A DNA stretch of 22,371 nt from Cochliopodium minus (taxonomy: Eukaryota > Discosea > Himatismenida > Cochliopodiidae). This document shows, piece by piece, positions 751 to 19,313 of this stretch. The position numbers were made by a program, and so were the translations under genes. Position 1 is the stretch's first letter, and each line of letters opens with the position of its first letter. Under the pieces are notes generated by a model. It was not told the DNA's origin. It did no database searches and saw only the letters and a program-made list of their open reading frames with translations. Location of the stretch: the NCBI GenBank assembly GCA_024220525.1, contig JAMYWO010000061.1, forward strand, positions 126,440 to 148,810. Direction: 5' to 3'.

Positions 751-3700
751 TCAAAAAGATCCGTAATCTTTCTTCATATCCTTTCTGGACAACAAAGGAC
801 CCTTTTGCTTATGATCATCCTCAATATCCAACTCATCATTCAAAAGTTTGTTGTGAGAACTGTTGTTTCTTCTTTTGAACAAAATGTCCATGAAATGTCT
901 CTCAGGAACCTTAATGAGTCTCGATATCAAACCGAGAACTAGGGAGAACAAACCGATACCCACACAGGAGATCCATTCCACTGAGTCGAGAGGTTGTACC
1001 TTGAATACCTCTCCTGTGAACTCCACGATGATCGCTTGAAGAACAACAGTGATGGCAATCACAGACAAAAATACCCAATTTGTGAAGAATCCTAACAAAA
1101 ATGAAATTTTAAAAAGAAAAAAATTAAAAAAAAAATATTAAAAAAATAATTCAAAAAATAATTAAAATATTAAAAAAAATAAAATTAAAAATAGTAAGAA
1201 AAAAAGTAAAAAAAATAAAATTAAAAATAGTAAGAAAAAAAGTAAAAAAAATTAAAAAAAATTAAAAAAATTCTTTTTTTTTACCTTTAAATACATTTAA
1301 TTCGTCGATGATGGTTCTTGCGTTAAGTTCATTGAAGACTTGGCAGAAGACGAAAGTGTTGAATACCATGGTGTAGTGTCTGGTGGTTTTGGCAGGGATA
1401 TTCCAGATGGTTGGACCTACATACAAAATGACCATCATGGCACCGACTAAATAAAAAAAAAAATAAAAAAAAATAAATAATAAAAAATATAATAAAAAAA
1501 TAAATATGAAATAAAAAGAATAAAAAGAATAAAATAAAAATAAAAAAAATAATGTATAAATTTTTTTTTTGACCTTGATAGATAGCTTGTACGAAAATGT
1601 TTTTGATCATTCTGTTGGTGAGGAGACGTTCTTCACGACCGTGAGGACGTTCTTCCATCAAACGTTGTTGAGGCTTCTCTGTTCCGAGCGCGAGAGCAGC
1701 CATGGTGTCCATGATCAAGTTGACCCACAACAATTGAACTGCCTTCAAAGGAGCACCTATACACAAAAATGTTAGGAATTTTTAATTAAAAAAAATTAAA
1801 AAAATTAAAAAAAAAACTCTTTAAAAAGAATAAATTAAATCATCAAAAATAAGAAAACTAAAAAAAAAAATTTGTTACATTATTTTTTTATTTTATTTTT
1901 TCAATTTGAATAATTAAAACAAAAAAGTAATTAAATTTAAAGAAAAAAACAAATTAAATAAAATCAATTTATCGAGAAAATTAAATGAAAAAAAATGAAA
2001 ATGAAATGAAAAAAATTAAATAAAAAATATCAAATGAAAAAAATTATTTTGGAAAAAAAAATTAATTACCTTGTCTTGTTGCAGCTCCAATCAAAGAAAT
2101 CAAAATAGCACCAAAATTGACGGTCAACTGAAATTGAAGAAACTTTCTGATGTTTTCGAAGACACATCTTCCCCAGAGGACAGACTTGACGATGGAGTTG
2201 AAGTTGTCGTCCATGATGACGATGTCGGATGCTTCCTTGGCAACGTTGGAACCACTTCCCATAGAAAGTCCCACATCTGCTTCTTTCAACGCTTTGGCAT
2301 CATTTGTACCATCTAAAAACATGAACAAAAATTAATAAAAAAAATTAATAAAAAAATAAAAAAAAATGAACAATAAATGAAAAATATAAAGAAAAATATT
2401 TGCTTTAATTTTTTTAAAAATATAACGATAAATTGATTTTTCTTAATTTTACATTATTACTAATATTATTTTTATTTTTTATTAAATTAATTTTTATTTT
2501 TTATTTTTTTTTACCTCCAGTTACTGCAACTACTTCCCCTTCTTCTCTAAGAAGTTTGACGAATCTGAGCTTGTCGTCAGGGAGGGAACGAGCGAGGACT
2601 TTCAATCTAGGCATCACTTCTTTAACTTCCTTGTCGGTTTTCTTTCTGAAGACATCTCCACTCCAAACCACATCTCTTTCTGAAGTAACAATAGAACATT
2701 TCTCTGCAATTTTTCTAGCAGTAACTTCGTAATCACCTAATTAAATTATTTCAAAAAAAAATATTTGAATTTAAATTTTTATTTGAAATGTAAAAAAATT
2801 ATTATTTAAAAAAAAAAATTTTAAATGTGAATTAAAATTTTTGTAACAAAATTTATCATTTTTTGGATCAAAATAAAATCAAAAAATTAAATTTTTTTTT
2901 TACCAGTAATCATTCTGACAGTGATACCTGCTCTTTGACATTGATCGACAGCCCCAGGTACTTCAGGACGTACAGGATCTTCAATACCAAACAAACCTAC
3001 ATAGGTCAACTGGGTGGCCAAGGTAGGGGTGTCAGGCACGAGAATGCGCTCAGAAATGGGGTCGTTCTCAGTCTTATTCAAGTCCAACCACTCCCTCCAC
3101 TCCTCCTCTTCGAAATCGCGGTAAGCAACAAGAAGAGTTCTCAAACCATCAGTACTCAACTCCTCGACCAAGTTGGACAATTTTTCTTTGTATTCGTTGG
3201 TTGCTTCGACCAATTTTCCGTCAGGAAGAAGGATGTGGGTGAGATCCTTGATGAGCTGGTCAGGTGCTCCCTTACAAAACAATCTGCAGACGTTCTCGTC
3301 CTTTCTGAAGACGACAGTGTACATTCTCTTTATGACGGAGCTGAATGGGAACTCTCTCACAATGTTGTTTCTTTCTCTCTTACGCACTTCTTTGTGGTAG
3401 AGAGGTTTTTCGATGATTTTGTCTGCCATGTCGACGAGAGACATTTCGGTAGGGTTTCCTCCAATGACATCCCATCTTTCTGCGAGTTTTAATTGTTTTT
3501 TTTTGAAGCATCCATCGTCTTCCTCTTGGACTTCCTCTTTTTTTTGACGGACAGTCTTAGAGTTGAGGTAGATGTTGTTGATCAAAAATTCTTCTTTTAC
3601 TCTTTTGTCGATGTTAAAATTAAATTTCAAATGCATTTCTACAAACTTGCTGCTTTCGTGAGATTTCTTCTCTTCGGAAAACATTTCAAACCCAATGAAT

Positions 3701-5442
3701 CCTTTAACTACTGTCATGACATTTTGAGTCAGAGTACCAGTTTTATCAGAGCAAATGTTAGTTGCGCCACCTTTTTGTTCACAAATAAGAATTGATAATA
3801 AAAAAAAGGTCAATCAAAAAAGAAAGGAGATTAAATAGATTTACCCATTGTTTCACAAGCTTCAAGATGTCTCACAAGATTTTGATCTTTCAACATCGCT
3901 TTCATAGAGTAAGCCAATGAAATGGTGACAGCCAAAGGAAGACCTTCAGGAATAGCAACGACAAGAACTAAAAAAAAAAAAAATTAGAAAATGAATCAAA
4001 ACAATAAATATCAAATAAAAAACTTTATTTACCTGTAATTCCAATAACAAATGCATCTACAACACCATTGAGAAGACCCCAATTCCAAGATTCTTCCAAA
4101 ATAACAGCGGAGGTGTCAATAGCCCAAAATATTGACAAAATGAAGAAAACGATGAAACCGCAAGACAAACCTGCTTTACTGATAAACTCTGCCATATCAT
4201 CCAAGTACTCTTGAAGAGGAGTATCCTCATGTTCGTGATCTTGTAAATCTTTCAATGTTTGACCCCATACGGAATGAACACCTTTTATATTTTGATAAGA
4301 ATAATTTAATTAAATCAAAATAAAAAGAATATTCCATTGAATATTTATTTATAATTATATTATATTTTCAATTATCATAATTTTTTTTAAATTCAGATGA
4401 ATATTTTTATATTTACGAAAAAAAAAGAGATGTTTACCAACAGCAGTTGCGATCATAATACCGGATCCTTGCAATACCATTGTATTAGATAAGAATAATG
4501 GATCTTTATTCAAAGATTTGGTGACGGGAAGATTCTCTCCAGTCATTGAAGATTCATCAATCATGATATCATTCCCCTTTATCAAAAATCCATCACAAGG
4601 TACCATATCTCCTTCGGCCAAAATGATGATATCTCCTACAACAATGTCTGAAGCCAATATCTCTACAGGATCTCCATTTCTTCTTACTTTTGACTTTAAT
4701 ACATCTGCTTTGTTTAATTTTTTGAATTGTCTTGCTTTATCCCAATCTAATGTCGATGTTACTATTGTTACCAATAATACAGCTATGACAATCGATAATC
4801 CTTCTATCCATCCTCCCTTTCCTTTTTGGCCAGTCACTGGATCTGGTTCGTGGAAGAAAATACCCAAGATCAATGAGACTATTGCAGCAAAGCACAAGAT
4901 GATGATGGTTGTATCTGCGAATGCTCCAATGAACAATTGAAACCACCATTTGGATTTCGTTTCTGGAAGAGCATTACCTCCAAATCTACAAATAAATAAC
5001 AATAAAATTTAAAATATTTTAGATTTATAAGCTATTTTTAATCTTGAATAAGATATATTATCATAATTTTCTATCTTGATTTTTCAAATAAAAAAATTAT
5101 AAAATATTTTTATATATTTTATAAATTTGAGAAATATAACTTATATATAGTAACGAATGAGTAATCCATTCCTATATTGTTTTATAGGTTTTCACTAATT
5201 TTTTAAAAAATAAGAATATACATGTCAATTCTATTTTGTCTATCCTCTTCTCCACTCAATCCTTGATCTATTTGTACATTCAATAACTTTACAACAGTTT
5301 CTATTCCTCCGAATTCTTGAATGAATTCTCCTCTTTTGCCATTTCGAGGTTCCATTTCTAGAGTGGTGGCCATCCATTGATTTATATTTTTTGCCAAATC
5401 ATGATCTAATTCATGATTCTCATCAATCTTTTCTTTGATCAT
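751..5442 (-). CDS. Plasma-membrane-type Ca2+-transporting P-type ATPase (P2B), 10 exons
   Basis: This is an ATP-driven Ca2+ pump that moves Ca2+ out of the cytosol across the plasma membrane or into an acidic store. Exons in transcript order: 5442-5222, 4985-4438, 4281-4033, 3967-3845, 3770-2904, 2736-2515, 2312-2070, 1756-1574, 1446-1285, 1091-751; 3159 nt, 1052 aa. Seen: M1-M2 from about residue 88; the actuator-domain TGE at 222-224 (TGENLP); M4 with PEGLP at 346-350; the phosphorylated aspartate D389 in SDKTGT; the hinge TGDGTND with D744; N837 and D841 in M6 (NLIMD), the P2B Ca2+-ligand pair; four further C-terminal membrane segments; and a hydrophilic tail of about 60 residues. The order and spacing match PMCA rather than SERCA. 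The ATG at 5442 is the first in frame after a TAG at 5472-5470, but that TAG could instead be an intron acceptor, so an extra 5' exon is possible. No long calmodulin-binding extension is obvious at either end. Confidence 0.93.
1172..1243. repeat. 36-bp tandem duplication inside a Ca2+-ATPase intron
   Basis: The segment containing AAAATTAAAAATAGTAAG at 1181 recurs at 1217, with flanking A-rich bases also matching. This gives two nearly identical 36-bp copies inside the 193-bp intron before the last exon. It suggests recent slippage or unequal crossing-over and shows how introns here grow. Confidence 0.8.
1757..2069 (-). other. Large intron of the Ca2+-ATPase gene
   Basis: This 313-bp intron separates the exon carrying the TGDGTND hinge from the exon carrying M6. 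It has GTAATT at the donor and TATAG at the acceptor on the minus strand. It is nearly pure A/T, and I see no nested gene or structured element in it. Confidence 0.7.
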
Positions 5443-5782
5443 TTTCTCAACAAACAAGTGACAAAAATTCTAATTTTTAAAAATCAAGAATTTTTTTTTT
5501 TTTTTTGATTTTAAATTTTATAATATATTTATATTTTTTTTATTTCAATCAAAATTATTCAATTTATTTGAAGAGAATAAACAAAGGGGAATCATTATTT
5601 TTAAACGTAAATTGGGAGAAAATCTTTTGAATTTTTAAAATTTAGATTCAACATCTAAAATATAATTAATTATTCAATTTCATTCAACTCTTTTCTAAAA
5701 TGAAACAAAAAGTTGGAAAAAAATACATACTTCCGCTTAGTTTTTCTTATTGTAACCAAAGGTCTTTTAATTTATAATTAAT
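5443..5782. other. Intergenic spacer, Ca2+-ATPase promoter side
   Basis: These 340 bp upstream of the Ca2+-ATPase start are A/T-rich. There is a slightly less AT-rich patch around 5715-5765, but no open frame with protein-like composition. A possible intron acceptor (TAG read on the minus strand at 5472-5470) sits 28 nt upstream of the chosen ATG. This is the expected place for the ATPase promoter and leader and for the 3' end of the small gene on its other side. Confidence 0.5.
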
Positions 5783-8483: not shown

Positions 8484-9189
8484 ATGAGCAAAAAGAAAGG
8501 ATTATCAAGAGATGAGAAATTGGAAAGGATGCTTGAATTATTCAGAGAATCTGTAAAATATAAAATAAAGAGCATATTAAACATATTTCCATAATACCAA
8601 CAAATATAGACCTATATTAATACATATTAATCAATAATAGAAAGCAGTATTGACATTAAAAGATTTGGAAAAGCGTGCATTCAAAGAAAAAGGGATAGTG
8701 AAACAAACAGTGAAGGATATAGCGTTGGAATTGACGTATGATGGGAAGATATTCATGGAGAAGGTGGGAACATCGAATTACTTCTGGTCATTCCCCTCTC
8801 ATTATCTGAAGATGAGAACCTCCAAGATAGAGGAATTGACAGAGAGCATCTCCAAATCAAAGAGGAAAAGGGAGGATCTCGAAAAGAAAAGGGATGAACT
8901 GTTAGAAACAAGACAACCAACAGAAGAAAGGGAATCAAAATTGCAAAAATTGGAGGAATTGAAAGAATTGAACGATACCTACAAAAAAGAATTGTCTGAG
9001 TTCGCACAGAACGATCCAGAGTTGATCGAGGCTTACAACAACGATATCAAGATCTTCAAGGAAAGTGCTAACAGATGGACTGACAACATCTTTTCTTTGA
9101 GAAGCTACATTGAATCGAAATTCTCCATGTTGAGAGAGGATTCAGATAAAGCATTGAATATTGATGAGAATTTTGATTATATAGAATAA
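8484..9189 (+). CDS. MND1: Meiotic nuclear division protein 1 (Hop2-Mnd1 complex subunit)
   Basis: Two exons, 8484-8552 and 8641-9189, are joined over an 88-bp intron (GTAAAA donor, AATAG acceptor). They give 205 aa, the same length as human MND1. The start MSKKKGLSRDEKLERMLELF and the motifs LKDLEK, EKGIV, GTSNYFWSFPS, TEER, AANRWTDNIF-like SANRWTDNIFSLRSY, and the end NFDYIE all match the family. Domains: an N-terminal winged helix (about 10-70), a long coiled coil (about 75-150) and a C-terminal capping helix region. In known organisms MND1 pairs with HOP2 and stimulates Dmc1/Rad51 strand exchange in meiosis. Its intact state suggests that the organism keeps meiotic recombination. It converges with the secreted-protein gene downstream, 93 bp between stops. 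Confidence 0.97.
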
Positions 9190-9282: not shown

Positions 9283-12249
9283 CTATTTAGAACAATAATT
9301 TCCAATAGTTCCATCTTGAGACCAAATAGTTCTTGGTCCCCATACTGTAGTTTGCTTTGAGGAGAAAGGAACTAAAATTTAAATATTTTTAAAGAGAAAT
9401 CAACGAAAAATAAACAAAAAATTACAAAAAAAAAAAATTACTGTTCAAAGAAAGTTGGGAACTTACTGTCAAAGAACTTGAATATCTATTTTTGGAAAAA
9501 CAAATAAGTTATTATTTTATTAAAGAAAAAATAATTGGATATTAACGTTAATTCAGCACATAATTGGTCAGTTGTTGTATTCCATTGAGCAGCTGCAGTG
9601 ATACTAAACAAAATGAAATTGGAAAAAAAATTTTTTAAAAAAAAAAAAAAAAAATACCTTGGGTTCTTCGAAAAAAAATTATCAAAAATTAAAAAAAAAT
9701 TTAAAATATGAAGAAAAAAAATTAATAATTATTTATACAAAGTTGTAAGTGGTGGAGAAAAAGTTGTCAACATGAAAACCATAAGAAGGAGCCAAAGAGA
9801 AACAAGTGGAAGCAGTGAACCCTGCTTCTCCAGAAACCACTGGGGTCCATGTTACAATAGGGCTTGGATGAACATGTTCCCAACCAGACAAAAGACCTTT
9901 TAAGTTTTGAAAAAGCAAAAATGAAAAAATAAAAAAAATAAAAATAAAAAATAAAAAATAAAAAAATAAAATAAAAACAAAAAAATAAAATTGAAAAATT
10001 TTTTTTACCCCATTTGACGTACCAACAACTTTTTAATTTTTAAAATTAAATTTTTTAAATAATTTTTTTTTTAAATGAAATTTTTATTTTTACTCCCAAG
10101 TGTAGTTGAAGCTTGTACCGATAGTTGCAGTCGCGGTGAATTGATATTGAGAGTTGAGAGCGAAGCCCAAATCTAGGAGGAAGTAGAGGTGGACAGGAAC
10201 AGGTCCGATGTTAAAGTTTAACAAGTTTATCTCTCCTCCTATTGGAATGTTCTTGTCGATACCTTGATCAAAATTACAAATAAAAAATTGATGAAAAAAA
10301 AAATTAAATCTAAAATTAAAAAAATATAAAAAAAATCAAATCTAAAATAAAAAATAAAAAAGTTTAGTCATAATTAAAGAAATATGTTATGAGTAATTTA
10401 ATAAAAATTTGATCAAAAAAAAATCAAATCTAAAATTAAAAAGATAAAAAAATTTCAAAAAAAATGAAAAGAATTCATCAAAATCTTAATAAAAAGAATT
10501 TATAAATGAAAAAAATTTTCATAAAAAATTCGTTCATAAATAAAGAAATATGTCATGAGAAATTTTAAAATAATATTAATAAAAAATAAAAAAATTTTAC
10601 AAATAAAATAAGTTGATCATATCAAAAAAAAAAAAATTTCAAATAAATTAAAAAAATTTACAAGTAAAATAAAAGTGATAAAAAATAAAATTTTTTTTTA
10701 AAAATAATAAAAAAAATATATTTAAATTTAAAATTTTTTACCAGCACTCCAATCAATGTGAGCTTGTAATTGCATGATGAGGGAACCCAACATTTCAAGG
10801 TTGACGAAACCACCAGTGAAGCTGATACACTCGAACAAGTCGATGTGGACTTCGAGGAAAACGTCTCCTGTTAACGCGAAGAAGCAGTCCTCGCATGTCA
10901 CTGTGATGTATTGGTTATTGTAAAGTTGTAACGGTTGTGAAGCGTTGGTACATTGCTATAAAAAAAGATTTTAAAACAAGATGACAAAAAATAAAATTAA
11001 AAAATAAAATTTAAAAAATAGAAATGAATTAATAAAAAAAATAGAAATAAAAAAAAATAGCATTAAAACTAGATGACAAAATTAAATCAAAAAACGAAAA
11101 TGAGAAAAAAGAATATTATAACAAAATAACATTTTTTTTTAAAAAAAGAAATAAATATCAAAATATGAAAAATAAAATAAAAAAGAAATTAAAATAAAAA
11201 TGAGAATAAATTTAAATATTTTTGAAACTAAAATTTAATTTAAAAAAATTATTTTTTACTTCGTTTGTATTGATTCCCAAACAAAAATGGCCACTTTTAG
11301 GATTATTGAAAGCAGGGTAAGTGTGGGCAACCTTAGGATCAACAACCTCATCACCGCAAGTCTCTGAAGATGAACCAAATGAAATGTGAGCTTTGTCGAA
11401 GATCTCATCGTATCTGGAGTCGGACAAACTCAATAAGAGAGTATTGGTTCCTTCGGTGTATTCTTCAAAAGCGAACACTCTTCTTAACAATGGTTTTCCT
11501 TTACAAAAGAATGTTGGAGTTTGGGATGTGATGACTTGTTCAAAATAAAAAATAAAAATTTTTTTTGATGTTATTTATTTATTCGTTGAAATTTCGATTT
11601 TTTTATTTTATAAAAGATTATTTTTATTTACATGTTATCACTGGTTTGATTTGTGATGAAAATTGTTGCATTGATGATGAAGAAGGGAATGTTATCAACA
11701 TTGATGATGGATCTTTATAGGAGGAATTAAAGGAAGGGGGTATTGAAATTTGAAAAATTTAATTTAAATTCAAAAAAAATAAATATTGAAAAGTTTTTTA
11801 CCTAAATTACTTTATGTGGAGTAAATTATGGTTTTAAATTAAACATTTGAAGTATGATTCTTTACCATGTGATATTAGATGCTCCTATTTTTGAATTGAA
11901 AAAAAAAAATAATAATTTACTTTGTTCTTTATATTCCTCATATCTTTACCTTGTTCTTCAAGTACGAGAAAGATATTATCCACTGCAACAGATACATTGT
12001 AATTCAAATTATATATTTTCTTGTTTAAGCATATTCTCTTGTTATCAACAAAATATTTTCTTCCTTTTGATATATTGAGATTATATAATCCAGTTATATG
12101 GTTCCAATGAAATTTATTATTTTACCCTTCAATCTTTTATAGTCTGCAAATGCATGTTTCATTGGATTTGGTGGTTTATTCAAAGAAAACGAACTTGCAA
12201 CATTTATGAATAGAATTATAGACAACAATAACAAAATAAGCTTTATCAT
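9283..12249 (-). CDS. Secreted protein of unrecognised family, copy A (473 aa, 13 exons)
   Basis: Exons in transcript order: 12249-12126, 12063-11921, 11884-11845, 11712-11632, 11534-11260, 10955-10742, 10262-10094, 10028-10009, 9896-9739, 9665-9658, 9603-9547, 9485-9442, 9371-9283; 1422 nt including TAG. The protein begins with a signal peptide (MIKLILLLLSIILFINVASS) and is otherwise soluble, with many cysteines. It aligns along its length with the divergent copy B. Shared blocks: RICLN/NVCIN near the start, VITFITS and C.GKPLLRR, TCEDCF, W-E-HVHPSP, H-V-DNFFSTTYNF, ELTY, SQLSLN, and GPRTIW...GTIGNYC at the end. No enzyme motif is recognised; long alternating hydrophobic stretches suggest a beta-rich extracellular protein. 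Exon 3 (11884-11845) needs an unusual GTTTAA donor, so 11713-11884 is the least certain part. Exon 10 is only 8 nt. Confidence 0.82.
9658..9665 (-). other. 8-nt micro-exon of copy A
   Basis: On the minus strand AACCCAAG is flanked by AG (CGAAG) before it and GTATTT after it. Including it supplies Asn-Pro and the first two bases of Ser between TTYNF and ITAAAQ. This restores the frame and matches KPIIYFNAQ at the same place in copy B, where the sequence lies inside one exon. Skipping it leaves the two neighbouring exons out of frame. Confidence 0.75.
10263..10741 (-). other. 479-bp intron of copy A with decayed internal repeats
   Basis: This is the largest intron in the window, with a GTAAAA donor and TCAAG acceptor on the minus strand. 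Within it a segment around 10370-10410 (containing AAAGAAATATG) recurs in diverged form about 166 bp on, at 10536-10576. An AAATCTAAAAT motif appears three times between 10300 and 10440. The rest is A/T filler without an open frame. Confidence 0.6.
10956..11259 (-). other. 304-bp intron of copy A
   Basis: GTAAAA donor after GAA at 11260 and TATAG acceptor before 10955. A/T-rich filler; no gene, RNA or clear repeat seen. Confidence 0.6.
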
Positions 12250-12326
12250 ATTTGGTATACTGGCTTTCTATTTTTTTTTATATTTTTTAAATTCAAAAAA
12301 TAAATAAATTAAATTTTAATAAAAAA
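12250..12326. promoter_or_regulatory. 77-bp bidirectional promoter region between divergent paralogues
   Basis: Only 77 bp separate the two start codons, which point away from each other. The spacer is T-rich in its left half and A-rich in its right half. It must therefore hold both 5' leaders and any core promoter elements, and co-expression of the two paralogues is the natural inference. I see no clear TATA motif that stands out from the background composition. Confidence 0.6.
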
Positions 12327-13402
12327 ATGAAACACCTTTTGTCACTTTTGCTTGTTTTATTTTGCTGCACTTCTTATTGCTTATTGCAAGGAAATATCAA
12401 ATTAGAAAGAGATCCAAATTTAAAATCAAAAACAATTGGAAATAAGACTATTATTGAAGGTAAAAACAAATATATTGGAAAGGATCATAAAATATAATCA
12501 AAATACTGGTTATATTCCATATGGATTGTTATGGAATTTATAATTTTGAATTAATTTTGTTAATTATAGGAAAACAAAATGTCTGTATTAATCAAAAGAC
12601 TCATACATTGGAATATACAGCAGCATTAAATGCAAATAATACATATTTGTTGCTAGAAGATCCAAAATATGGAATTGTAAGACAAATTAAACAAATATAA
12701 AGGACAATATAATCTTTCTTAACATTCCCAATAGAATTCATTTACATGTAATGTGGATCCAACAGGTAAAAAAACAATTTCCAATTTAAAATTTCTTTAA
12801 AAAAAAGAATTCATTTCAATCAATTCTTAGCTGGAGTGATATTCTTCGAGAATGACGTAGTAATGTGTGATTTCATGGAATTGTTGAAATCAGTGACCAC
12901 ATTCATCACCTCCTCCAAATTCATGTGCAATGGAAAGCCAATAATAAGGAGAATGTTGGGATGGGTAATTCCAAAATAAAGAATAATTTGTAATCATATC
13001 TAATCATGAAACATCTTTTCCAATAGGCACCTGCAGGTTCAATGGTTAAAAAAAAAATTTAAAAAAAAATTTAATTTTTTATTTTTTATTTATCTTTTTT
13101 TGATTTTTTAGATTCCTTGCCTTTATGTTGCAACCAGTGATGCCTTGTATGACGAAGTATTTGAGTCCCTCGCTTTGAACTTGAGCGCCTCGGCAGTGGA
13201 CACCTTGAACTGCAAAGGAGAACATCATGTATGTATCGGATACAATCACAACACAACTTGTAAAAAAAAAATTATTATCCATTACTATTGTTTTTGATTA
13301 TTTTAATTATTTTTATTTTTTAATGTTTTATTTTTGCTTTTATAATGTTTATTTATTTTTTATTTTTTTATTTTTTTATTTTTTATTTTTTACTTTTTTT
13401 AT

Positions 13403-13448
<46 letters not shown>

Positions 13449-14887
13449 TAGGTAATGGAGCAATAGAACCTATCAACTTGTTCCAAAACTCCTTTTTGAC
13501 CATCACTTGCCAAGAATGTTTTGTGGGAATCAGCGCAGACATTTTGTTGGACATCAGCATGAAGGGTTTTCGCTTGCAAAGTTTTCAAGCAGGTTTCTCC
13601 AACATCATTCACGATTCTGGCTTCGTTCTAAAATTAGTAGCTCAAAAGAGTTGGGGAACTGGAGTTGACAAAGTTATGTAATAATAATTTTGTAAAAAAA
13701 TTATTATTTTTATTTTTATTTTATTTTATTAAAAATTAATATTCATTTTTAATTTTCTTCTTTATTTTTATTTTTTTTTAATTTTTTTGTTTTTTGTTTT
13801 TCATTTTTATATGTTAATTATTTTAGATTTTTTTAATTTTATTTAAAAATTGTTATCTTATTTTAATTTTATTCTTTAATTATAAATTTTATTTTTACGA
13901 TTTAATTTAACAAATATTTTTATTTTTTATATTAATTCACTACAATAAATATTACATATTTTTTTAAAATTATTTTTTACTTTTTTATTGTTAGGCCTGT
14001 CGTTAAATCTGCTACAGTGGTTGATTTTTTTGTTGGAGTGATACCTTTCCACATCTTCTTCGATGTTGACATTGAGTTTTCTAGTTCAATGAACATGTAA
14101 ACCCTTTTTGAGCATCTTACATTCCTTTTTAATTTTTTTTTTAATAAAAAAATGTTTTCATTCACACCTTAAACAGGATGGCAGAAGCACAAGCAGAGAT
14201 TGGAACTTTATCCACTTGGTATCTCCTTATTTATTTATTTACTAAATAAATAATTTAATAACAATTAAACATATTTAATATTTAGGAATTATGGAAGCAG
14301 TTATGTTGGATATCAAGCAGGACAAGGATGGTTTAAAAAATAAAACAAAATTTTTTATTTTTTAAATTATTTTTTAAACTATTTTTTGGAACTATTTTTC
14401 TTTGATTTTAAATTCATTTTTTTAAATTAGTTTTTTTTAAATTATTTTTTAAATTAATTTTATTTTTGATTTTTTTTTAATCAATTTTATTTTATTTTTG
14501 TTTTTTTTTTTAATTTTATTTTTGCTTACAAATAGGTATCACGTCCACCCAAACCCCACTTTGGAATGGAGAACCAAACTCAGCGAAGCAAGCGCCATGT
14601 TCAGCGCCTCGGCAGACTACTCGATCTCCCCCTCCATCACCTTCCACCTCGACAACTTCTTCCAAACCACCTACTCCTTCAAACCCATCATCTACTTTAA
14701 CGCCCAAGGAAGTACTGTTACTCAACAAGTTTGTGCCAATTTGACTTATGATCTTTCTTTTGATGTCCAATCTCAACTTTCCATCAATGTTCCTTTTGTT
14801 GACGTTCATTCTGTCACTACTTATGGCCCTAAGACCATTTATACTAGTGGTACTCAGACCATTGGTTCTGTTTGTGAAAAGATTTGA
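12327..14887 (+). CDS. Secreted protein of unrecognised family, copy B (445 aa, 11 exons)
   Basis: Exons: 12327-12459, 12570-12676, 12735-12765, 12831-12964, 13027-13044, 13112-13259, 13452-13677, 13995-14096, 14177-14218, 14286-14330, 14536-14887; 1338 nt including TGA. It starts with a signal peptide (MKHLLSLLLVLFCCTSYC). Paralogous to copy A throughout: NVCINQK, FITSSKFMCNGKPIIRR, TCQECF, GW-Y-HVHPNP, FHLDNFFQTTYSF, NLTY, SQLSIN and GPKTIY...TIGSVC at the end. NxS/T sequons (for example NNT, NLS, NTT, NLT) suit a secreted glycoprotein. No catalytic motif is recognised. The first three introns sit at the same places and phases as in copy A; most others differ. The last exon carries what copy A spreads over five exons and shows a sharp change in codon use near 14707. 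Donors GTTAAA (13045) and GTTTAA (14331) are unusual but are required by the frame. Confidence 0.85.
13678..13994 (+). other. 317-bp intron of copy B
   Basis: Donor GTAATA directly after AAAGTTAT and acceptor TTGTTAG. Strongly T-rich filler; no open frame, RNA or repeat seen beyond simple T/A runs. Confidence 0.6.
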
Positions 14888-15258: not shown

Positions 15259-18200
15259 ATGTTCAAAGTAATATTCTATCTATCCATATTATTAATATCA
15301 TTCGGCCTAGCAAATTGCTGGTGGATGGAAGGCGTAAGACAAATTATATCAACAAAATAAAAAAAAATCATATTTATTTTTTCTCCGTTCTGAATATAAT
15401 AAACCTTTTCAAATGAAATAGCATCTGACCGTAGTAGAAATAGCAATAATGGTAAAAAATATTTTCTTAAATATTTTCCAAAAAAAAAAAAAAAAAAAAA
15501 AAAGAGATGCCAAGCAATCAATTCATTATTTCTTTCCCTCCTTTGATATTAGAGATTGAATAACTCAAAGACGTACAAATTGGCTGAAATGCTCGCAGAA
15601 CAGCTCAAAGATTATTTTCCAGCCAACCCCGATCTTTTGAACAGTGCAACATGGTGAGTAAAAGAATAAAATAATGTACATAAAATTAAAATGAATATGA
15701 TATAGGATGGATGATTTAAGAGCATTGGGATTCAAGATGTTCGATCAATGGCATTACATGTATAAAATAAAAAAAAAAAATCTGATTTAAATTTAAATTT
15801 AAAAAAAAATACCAACAGAAACAAACCATTCATAAACGAAGATAATTTTACCTTAAATTGGTGTCTTCCAGATCATAATGTAAATTTCATTTTTTTTGTA
15901 CATTTTATTTTTTTAAAATTTTTTTTAAATTTTTTTTATTATTTGAATATTTTTTTCAACATTAATCACAATTTAAAATCATTTGTTAATTTTTTAATAA
16001 AGGTTGTTTATGCAATTCAACAATGTTCCGAAAACTTTAAAACTGCAACACCAAACACTTGGTTGTTTTTATTTTCATTGAGAATTTTAACCCATTTGAT
16101 AGGAGACATTCACCAAGTAAAAAAAAAATTTTAAAATAAAAAAATAATAATTCAAAAAAAAATAATAAAAAAATTATAAAAAATTTAAAAAAAAAATTTC
16201 AAAAAAAATGATAAAAAAAAAAATTAATAAAAAAAATTAATAAAAAAAAATTAATAAAAAAAAATAAAACGATTTTTTTTAGCCTATGCATTCAATTAGT
16301 CTCTTCAACAACCGATTCCCAAGTGGGGATCAAGGAGGAAACCTTTTCTATGTCAACATTGATAGTAAACATTTTTTCATTTTTTCCCCAAATTATCTTT
16401 GATTTTAAACAAAAAAATTATGTCATCACAGCCAATGACAACATTGTAAGGTCAAATATGCATAGGTAAAAAAATTTAAAATTTATTTAAATTTTTTAAA
16501 TTTCAAATTTTTTTTTAAATTTTTTAAATTTCTAATTTTTTTAATTTTTTTTTACATTTTTTTTATTTTTTTAACCAAATAAAAGTGTTTGGGACAGTGT
16601 TGGGTAACTAATTAAAAAAAAAAAATTTTTTTGAGATGCATTTCAAACCTTTTTTTTTTACCAGTTTCTATTATACAACAACTTACGAAATGTAAAAAAA
16701 TTTTCACAAAAAATAAAAAAACAATTTTATAATAATAAAAAAAAAAAAATTTAAATCAAAAATAAATAAATAAATTTAAAAATAAAAATAAAAAATAAAA
16801 AAATAAAAAAATAAAAAAATAAAAATAAAATAAAAAATAAAAATAAAATTTAAACATAAAAATTTAAAAACAAAAATAATGAACAAAAAAAAAAACAAAT
16901 TTTAATTAGGCCTGTAAACAAAACTACCATTGGAGTTATCAGAGAACACGCACAAACACTAATCAACAGATTTCCTTATGACACCCTTGAAGAGAAATAC
17001 GATCTCACTCAAATAAACTCGTCTCTGTGGCAACAAGAAAGTTACGACATTGGTGCAGAGTTTGCTTATATCAATGGTACTTTGCCCTTTAACTCCACTT
17101 TGGACATCAATTTCATTCAAACTGTTCAAGACAAAGCTCTTGAAAGAATAGTTCTTGCTGGTAAAAATAAAAAATTATTTAAAATTTTTCTATTTATTTT
17201 CTTTTTTTATACATACATTTTTTTTTTTTATTAGATAATGGAAAGATTTATAGGAGTGGTCTATGGGATGGGGAAAACCACAAAAAATTTGTAGAAGTTA
17301 ATATGGACGATGTTGTTTCTTTTTCCAACGGAAAACTTCATTTCTTGTTTTTAAAAAGTAAAAAAATTTTTTTTTTTTTTTTAATTTTTATTTTTATTTT
17401 TTAAAATATTTTTTTGTGAATTTTTTATTATTTTATTTATTATTTTAAAATTTTGTCTTTAATATTTTGTTATTGTCATTTTATTTTATTTATTATTTTA
17501 TTTTATTTTTATTTTATTTTTATTTTATTAAATTATTTTATTAATTTTTTCACTTTATTATTTTTTTTAAAAAAGAAAATGGGGAAATATGGACGATGGG
17601 ATCAAACTCATTCGGGGAATGTGGCCTCACTCATAAAAACCCAAAAGAACCTTCTCTCTTGATGACTGACAAAAATGCCATTAGCGTTTCTTGTGGTTAT
17701 TGGCACTCTTTCATTTTAACACGTAAAAATTGTTTTAAATTAATTAAAGAATACAATGAAAATAAATTTGAAAAAAATTTCAAGTAATTGTATAATTTAA
17801 ATTTAAAAATAAAATTAAATATTAATAACAAAATAAATAAAAATAAAAAAAAATAATCAGAAAAATTTATAATAAATGAAAATTAAATTTACAATAAATA
17901 AAAATAAATTTAAAATAAATTAAAAATTATCAAAATAAAATTAAAAATAATTATTAGAAAAATTAAAGTAAAAAAAAAAACAAAAATAAATGTAAAATAA
18001 ATTAATTAATATTTCAAAATTTTTTATTAAAATTAAAAATGAATAATTTAAATTTTATTAATTCAATTTTTTTAGGAGATGAAAAAGGAAATAGTGTGTT
18101 GAAAGGCTTTGGAAGAAATAGTAGTGGACAATTAGGAGTGGCGAATTCCGAAACCAAAAGATTAATTTCGTCCATCACTCACATTCCCAACATTTCTTCA

Positions 18201-19313
18201 ATTCATTGTAGCGAAAACTTTACCTTTATATTGACAGGTTGAAATTTTTCAAAAAAAAATTTAAAAAATTAGTAAAAATTTAATATTGAAATTTAGTTTT
18301 AATTTTTAAATTATTTCATTTTCATTATTTTTATTTTTTATTAATTGTTTTTTTTATTTTTTTTATTTTTTTAATATTTTTTATTTTTATTTTTTATTTT
18401 TTAAAATTTATTTTTTAAATTTTTTAAATTTTTTTGTTTTAAATTTAGAATCTAGTTTTTTGTTTTGAATTTTTTTATTTTTTTTTTACTTTCATTTTAT
18501 TTTTTAAAAGATAAAGGTGAAGTTTATGGGAGTGGTGAAAACAGCTATAAACAAATCAAAAATTCCAGTACCAGAGCTTATTTTGAATTTAAAAAGCTTT
18601 CTCTCAAAGACATTTGCTATGTTTCAACTGGAGTCAAACATGCCCTTTTTGTTGACAGTAAAAAAATTTTCCTCTCATTTTTTATTTTTTAATTTTATTT
18701 TTTTTAATCATTTTAGATTTTGATTTTTATTTTTTTGATTTTTATTTATTTTTATTATTAAAACTTATTTTTGATTGTTTATTTTTATTTTTATTTTGAT
18801 ATTTTTTGATTTATTTTCATTTTTTATTAATTTTTTAATTTATTTTTTTTATTAGTTATTTCTTATTATTCAATTATTTTTTTATTTTTATTTTTAATTA
18901 AATGCTCATTAAAATCTAAATTAATAAGAGATGAACCAAATCTTTGTTTCTGGTGGTTCTGACCTTGCAAATATAGTTAAAGGAGAAAATACTTTTTCTC
19001 CTCTAGATTTTGATGATCTGAAATTAATGCAAAACCATGAACTTTTCCTCGTAAAAATTTTTTTTTTAAAATAAAAAAATAAAAATTTTTTTCAAAAAAA
19101 TAAAAAATTTCATTAATTGAATTCTTCATTTTTTTTAATTTACTTTATAAAAAAAAGGAATGGACAACAAGTTCCCATTTGCAATTTGACAGGGCATTCA
19201 GAGAAAGAGTTTTAGTTTTTGTATTGTGTTTGAAGCATTCTCGAATCTTCATCCTCAAAAAGATTAAGATCCCAAAACCTGTTCAACACATCATAATTAA
19301 AGCTTCATTTTAA
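15259..19313 (+). CDS. S1/P1 nuclease joined in frame to RCC1-like repeats (567 aa, 17 exons)
   Basis: Nuclease exons: 15259-15333, 15422-15451, 15553-15653, 15706-15759, 15819-15879, 16003-16116, 16283-16364, 16432-16465, 16586-16603, 16665-16691, 16910-17160. RCC1 exons: 17235-17357, 17576-17722, 18076-18237, 18511-18657, 18929-19050, 19158-19313. The sum is 1704 nt with TAA. Residues 1-20 are a signal peptide ending ANC. The mature Trp21 and the S1/P1 zinc ligands are all present: W21, H26, D71, H85 (WHY), H138 and D142 (HLIGDIHQ), H148, H183 and D187 (HSVWD). This predicts a secreted or lysosomal single-strand-specific DNA/RNA nuclease. The family's final ALAG-RLA-LN segment breaks off at VLA. 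Residues 283-520 then show about five RCC1 blades (KIYRSG, EIWTMGSNSFGECG, KGFGRNSSGQLG, EVYGSGENS, QIFVSGG), and a basic tail follows. It could be a true fusion, two damaged genes joined by a deletion, or an assembly misjoin. Confidence 0.7.
17161..17234 (+). other. Junction intron between nuclease and RCC1 parts
   Basis: This 74-bp T-rich tract begins GTAAAAAT and ends TTATTAG. It has phase 1, like the introns between the RCC1 blades. Read unspliced from the nuclease frame it has no stop until the TAG formed by its own acceptor. Retention would therefore give a 306-residue nuclease with a Lys-rich then strongly hydrophobic C-terminal tail. No start codon, promoter-like spacing or poly(A) signal that would separate two genes is obvious here. 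Confidence 0.55.
17723..18075 (+). other. 353-bp intron in the RCC1 part
   Basis: Donor GTAAAAAT after ACAC and acceptor TTTTTTTAG before GAGATG. An A-rich middle is built of AAATTAAAAATAA-like words. No gene or structured element seen. Splicing is supported because an RCC1 blade resumes immediately after the acceptor in the same phase. Confidence 0.6.

Follow-up and report, generated by a model that had tools for sequence, protein, structure and literature searches.

A predicted gene that joins the front of an S1/P1-type nuclease in frame to the back part of an RCC1 repeat protein was identified in a 22,371-nucleotide stretch of the genome of the amoeba Cochliopodium minus (GenBank assembly GCA_024220525.1, contig JAMYWO010000061.1). 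This stretch, referred to here as the window, lies at C61:126440-148810 of an assembly of 44.65 Mb in 598 contigs, and its G+C content ranges from 18 to 39% across 1-kb windows. The gene model at window positions 15259-19313 comprises 17 exons (11 from the nuclease and 6 from the RCC1 part) with 1,704 nt and 567 amino acids in frame 0, without an internal stop and with GT..AG borders in all 16 introns. It reproduced base for base the 17-exon model, divisible by three, of a preliminary description of this DNA. Both domain matches, to the S1/P1 nuclease and to the RCC1 repeats, were beyond doubt in Pfam, and the join between them is present in the assembly. On comparison with the parent families we favor, with moderate confidence, a genomic fusion by chance rearrangement, which would yield a secreted nuclease whose RCC1 tail is incomplete and more likely carried as a passenger than as a selected part. 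The features of the gene are as follows (window positions, all on the plus strand).

15259..17160, plus strand: S1/P1-type nuclease, residues 1-282 plus one base, 11 exons, with a signal-peptide-like start
15259-15333, 15422-15451, 15553-15653, 15706-15759, 15819-15879, 16003-16116, plus strand: nuclease exons 1-6
16283-16364, 16432-16465, 16586-16603, 16665-16691, 16910-17160, plus strand: nuclease exons 7-11
17157..17162, plus strand: nuclease-side end GCTGGT (Ala-Gly in the nuclease frame), with the GT of the Gly codon (17161-17162) as splice donor
17161..17234, plus strand: junction intron of 74 bp, phase 1, GTAAAAAT...ATTAG
17235..19310, plus strand: RCC1 part, units 3-7 of 7, 6 exons
17235-17357, 17576-17722, 18076-18237, 18511-18657, 18929-19050, 19158-19310, plus strand: RCC1 exons
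17303..17305, plus strand: first in-frame ATG past the junction, the Met in VNMDDVV, within RCC1 repeat sequence and not the family start
19158..19313, plus strand: last exon and stop, with the family C-terminal box EW..SSH..F...FRERVLVFVLCLK...KIPKPVQHIII

The nuclease part matched the S1/P1 family (PF02265) with an E-value of 2.3e-39 over residues 21-279, scoring 136.2 bits against a curated cut-off of 29.5. By eye and by hydropathy, the N-terminus MFKVIFYLSILLISFGLANC, which is followed by W21, resembles a signal peptide. In the alignment to 8qjl, nine of nine columns that we take to be the zinc ligands of the solved S1/P1 nuclease were filled (W21, H26, D71, H85, H138, D142, H148, H183, and D187). 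The nuclease domain with signal peptide and zinc ligands claimed in the preliminary description was thus borne out, the role of the columns being presumed. The signal-like start, the Trp, and the nine ligand positions are shared with known S1/P1 nucleases (8qjl S1/P1 Nuclease, 3w52 Endonuclease 2, and 5fb9 Nuclease S1). In contrast to these, the window gene matches only profile positions 1-242 of 258, and the last 16 positions are replaced by RCC1 sequence, so that the domain does not run to its C-terminal end.

Three other nuclease genes were found in the genome, on contigs C183, C7, and C339, with that on C183 closest to the window's. Their profile matches end at positions 258, 258, and 257 compared to 242 in the window; these ends come from hand-spliced models, two of them C-terminal pieces, and in C183 the final 8 residues of the match follow a hand-chosen splice. 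At the position of the window's break, the coding sequence runs on in all three paralogs (GYRIA, SVRLA, and SIRLA, by eye), with no intron interrupting it in any of them. The introns were read by eye, with an informative spliced alignment for C183 only, as those for C7 and C339 were spurious. Because the paralogs continue there without an intron, the nuclease-side break probably falls inside a coding exon, with the Gly codon GGT doubling as the splice donor. It was also noted that the C-terminal exon of the C183 gene (L048, C183:64836-66791, minus strand; hand-spliced) looks membrane-spanning. Its first exon, read by eye, has neither a clear signal peptide nor the Trp that would follow, and the usual Gly-Gly-Asn motif is altered.

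The second half of the chimera contained Pfam RCC1 repeats with E-values of 7.2e-21 and 8.2e-18, while the C-terminal box region of the last exon gave no Pfam match at E <= 1. The genome holds at least 205 RCC1 exon matches. We modelled 15 paralogs in 18 stretches drawn from those scoring best against the window, using a spliced aligner with a long-intron penalty, and these models are predictions from DNA alone. Two of them were treated with care: the C9 model (L053) contains a stop and could not be read at the junction position, and L058, which is cut by a contig end, was used for the intron counts but not for those of profile, deviation, and tree. The RCC1 family of this genome (C41, C115, C403, C7, C497, and others) matches units 3-7 and the C-terminal box of the window exon by exon, with the same phase-1 introns and 40-51% identity. 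The box itself was found in the window and in 13 of the 15 paralog models; the C403 model has none, and that of C181 runs off its contig.

The window's RCC1 part differs from this family in what it lacks. Complete paralog models possess seven repeat units, compared to units 3-7 only in the window, where the family start and units 1 and 2 (about 115 amino acids) are missing. The family start (about M..NSxSCFSxHN.FM) was recovered in 14 of the 15 models. In 13 of these the alignment begins at the Met, and in the other an in-frame ATG stands four codons ahead of the aligned part. The fifteenth model is truncated where its stretch ends, with a unit-1 exon visible upstream at C111:86388. No signal peptide is apparent by eye in these family starts. 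The preliminary description held that the RCC1 part was without its own start and the nuclease without its tail, and this agrees with the paralogs in the same genome, which carry both. As a wider observation, the large genome-wide RCC1 family, with mostly phase-1 introns between its units, offers a ready substrate for frame-preserving joins. Two RCC1-like matches lie in open frames listed with lengths that are remarkable for an AT-rich genome: that at C13:274950-275108 in one of 8,013 amino acids, and that at C47:11659-11844 in one of 15,526 amino acids with one stop inside the match.

We then examined the junction. Its codon, G|AT for Asp283, is split by a phase-1 intron, and the codon at this position is split in phase 1 in 14 of the 15 RCC1 paralog models, the remaining one being that of C9. 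Because of this agreement, the RCC1-side break can be placed in a conserved phase-1 intron. Compared to the 120 introns of the 15 paralog models, the junction donor ranks at the 97th-98th percentile and the acceptor at the 73rd, and the length of 74 bp compares with a family median of 76. A smaller set of 105 introns (without L053, L058, and introns >900 bp) gave the 98th and 70th percentiles and a median of 74. In these measures, the junction intron resembles the ordinary introns of the RCC1 family. The in-frame join through a normal-looking phase-1 intron that had been described earlier is therefore upheld by the open frame and by splice sites that are ordinary to strong. That the frame stays open across the junction is not in itself strong evidence of fusion, because the RCC1 exons are already mutually in frame in the paralogs and agreement at the junction is only a 1-in-3 coincidence. 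If unspliced, the junction intron stays open for 24 codons, to the TAG at 17232-17234. This says little, because two further introns of the chimera's 16 are also open throughout in the read-through frame.

These comparisons suggest how the gene may have arisen. A chromosomal rearrangement (deletion or translocation) would have joined the front of a secreted S1/P1 nuclease gene to a seven-unit RCC1 gene, cutting the nuclease about 16 profile positions short of its end and entering the RCC1 gene at the intron preceding the unit-3 exon. The captured intron would keep its RCC1-family look, while its donor GT would now coincide with the nuclease Gly codon. The GGT of that codon may have met or replaced the RCC1 exon end and donor; that the two shared a GGT is a guess. 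A single mRNA spliced at 17160/17235 would then encode a secreted nuclease that ends in part of an RCC1 propeller. Such a tail is probably unable to form the canonical ring, since with two of seven units missing the propeller could not close. The working secreted nuclease with an RCC1 propeller that the preliminary description had in mind is accordingly not borne out, being made less likely by the two missing units together with family starts that lack a signal peptide.

The preliminary description had further proposed that both breaks fall in introns of the same phase, as recombination between two introns (exon shuffling) would give. The RCC1 side of this proposal stands, with its phase-1 intron in 14 of 15 paralogs, but the nuclease side does not, since the nuclease paralogs are coding at the break and none of the three has an intron there; recombination between two introns is thus not supported. 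Several points weigh against the rearrangement that we favor. A private intron at the break of the window's nuclease could have existed, because some intron positions elsewhere differ between this gene and its closest paralog C183. The missing RCC1 start may sit among the many RCC1 genes, as at least 186 start-region matches were found among the best 150 of 723 candidates, too many for an orphan start to be singled out. No relative with this arrangement in unfused form turned up in the assembly. The suggested search for the missing pieces was informative on one side only: a search with the C183 tail returned C183 itself (2 matches, E <= 1) and no orphan nuclease tail, while the RCC1 start regions were too numerous for a similar call.

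Two other loci were considered as sources of the fusion. On C7 (C7:38962-47258; L049 and L050), a nuclease is followed 4.7 kb downstream, on the same strand, by an RCC1 gene. The latter is the paralog nearest the window's, with 50-51% identity and a sister position in the tree (support 0.88, or 0.49 without the long-intron penalty). This arrangement hints at a past nuclease-RCC1 neighbourhood. An origin from this tandem pair was not upheld: by eye, other coding sequence lies between its nuclease and RCC1 genes, its nuclease is distant from the window's and gave no match in one of the nuclease searches, and the genes around the pair recur neither in the window nor in its 10-kb flanks. The locus on C33 (L065, C33:20600-22300, minus strand) was ruled out as the fusion's partner, as it has its own start and units up to 4. 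Its RCC1 similarity stops after unit 4, with about 470 bases beyond covered, and this gene may be broken at its 3' side.

To characterize the state of the RCC1 exons, we compared them with those of their relatives. Against leave-one-out family profiles, the window's RCC1 part scored 360 bits, tenth of 15 (322-428 for the 14 paralogs), and it ranks fifth of 15 in the length of its terminal branch. It is the most deviant of all at columns conserved in the family, with a mean of 18.5% compared to 3-17% for the 14 paralogs, and units 6 and 7 carry changes at glycine and leucine positions. From this examination, the RCC1 exons are not decayed, and they are slightly more deviant than any of the 14 relatives. 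Under simulated neutral substitution, with window-like base composition and indels ignored, an open frame and intact splice sites survived in 37% of cases at 1% substitution, 7% at 3%, and 1% at 5%. Because few simulated drifted genes stay open with intact splicing, the fusion would be young or the RCC1 exons still constrained. A slight surplus of unusual residues is at least as compatible with a young fusion as with constraint.

This bears on the alternatives. A fusion of DNA without a fusion of protein, in which transcripts of the nuclease terminate within or close to the junction intron and leave the RCC1 exons as an unexpressed relic, seems unlikely, yet it is the foremost of the competing explanations. 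Read-through is open to the acceptor TAG at 17232 and would give a basic and then phenylalanine-rich tail, the closest nuclease paralog ends in a membrane-spanning-like tail, and the window's RCC1 part is the most deviant at conserved columns. However, the junction donor and acceptor are ordinary to strong, two other introns read through equally well, and the terminal branch is only the fifth longest; such a relic would also have to be young, because so few frames survive 3 to 5% substitution in the simulation. An assembly misjoin, with two loci wrongly connected inside an AT-rich intron, appears somewhat less probable again. The junction does lie within a 74-bp A+T-rich stretch of an assembly in 598 contigs, and one N was seen inside a contig (in the C33 stretch). 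Against this, a 701-bp query over the junction gave one full match when the best 40 of 1069 candidates were scored (common words skipped), and among the 105 other matches listed none covers the nuclease flank (query 1-161). The one listed match over the RCC1 exons is the paralog on C33, at 68%, and the remaining matches start at query position 341 or later and are mostly intron. The lack of an orphan nuclease tail in the genome and the fit of frame, phase, and splice sites also speak against a misjoin.

It is doubtful, and slightly more so than a misjoin, that the chimera was produced by exon shuffling and kept by selection. In that case the chimera would be transcribed and translated, and its five RCC1 blades, arranged as an open array, would serve the secreted nuclease for binding or anchoring. 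This would be a new architecture caught early, following a break by which a coding Gly codon became the donor of a captured intron. The full set of ligand positions, an RCC1 part as family-like as intact paralogs, and the intact frame and splice sites are compatible with it. They are set against the two missing units of seven, RCC1 family starts that lack a signal peptide by eye, the changes at glycine and leucine positions in units 6 and 7, the absence of an intron at the break in all three nuclease paralogs, and the lack of a second instance among PDB sequences and IMG/VR. Within the favored fusion by rearrangement, a recently acquired passenger is a likelier role for the RCC1 part than a module under selection. 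That the RCC1 part is instead a separate gene, expressed alone from an internal start such as the in-frame ATG at 17303, is very improbable, since repeat sequence lies upstream of this ATG in the same exon and the paralogs start several exons earlier. A check for such a start, as earlier suggested, found neither an exon within 16600-17230 whose GTA or GTG donor would give a phase-1 splice to 17235 nor the family start motif anywhere in the window, and the adjoining 10 kb on either side of the window contained no RCC1 gene model.

As in another protist, Tetrahymena, RCC1 repeats are here attached to an unrelated domain: myosin-RCC1 and kinesin-RCC1 fusions are reported from Tetrahymena (PMC3143110), where the partner is a motor protein rather than a secreted nuclease. 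Gene fusion is described in PMC2926785 as the likely major mechanism of domain gain in metazoan proteins. Chimeric genes formed from exons of neighbouring genes, as treated there, represent the same domain gain by fusion, although the parents of the present gene are not known to have been neighbours. A chimeric gene formed by rearrangement is a known kind of event and is not evidence of a new working enzyme. The pairing that the preliminary description considered unfamiliar was likewise not encountered elsewhere: no PDB sequence carries both domains (7 and 28 sequences matched, none in both), none of the 16 stretches matched in an IMG/VR pattern scan encodes a relative, and among the papers listed in literature searches, no title or abstract opening gave an RCC1-nuclease pairing. 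Rarity is not established by searches of this scope.

The surroundings of the chimera were also surveyed. A short match to the RCC1 C-terminal box occurs at L061:7350-7544 on the minus strand (C61 at about 156 kb), approximately 11 kb past the chimera. Within the window, two oppositely oriented genes at 9290-12260 (minus) and 12327-14887 (plus) appear by eye to encode related secreted proteins, and the last exon of the latter gave no Pfam match at E <= 0.1. An MND1-like meiotic gene lies at 8490-9189 (plus), with Pfam matches to Mnd1 HTH and LZ3wCH in exon 8650-9186. A P-type cation-transport ATPase gene of many exons lies at 751-5460 (minus), its extent judged by eye and one exon matched in Pfam.

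If the fusion is real, its break can be placed almost to the base because both parent families occur in the same genome. It would then show how a coding codon turns into a splice donor when its exon joins a foreign intron. It would also caution that two domains found together in an AT-rich protist genome may be remnants left by a large RCC1 family.

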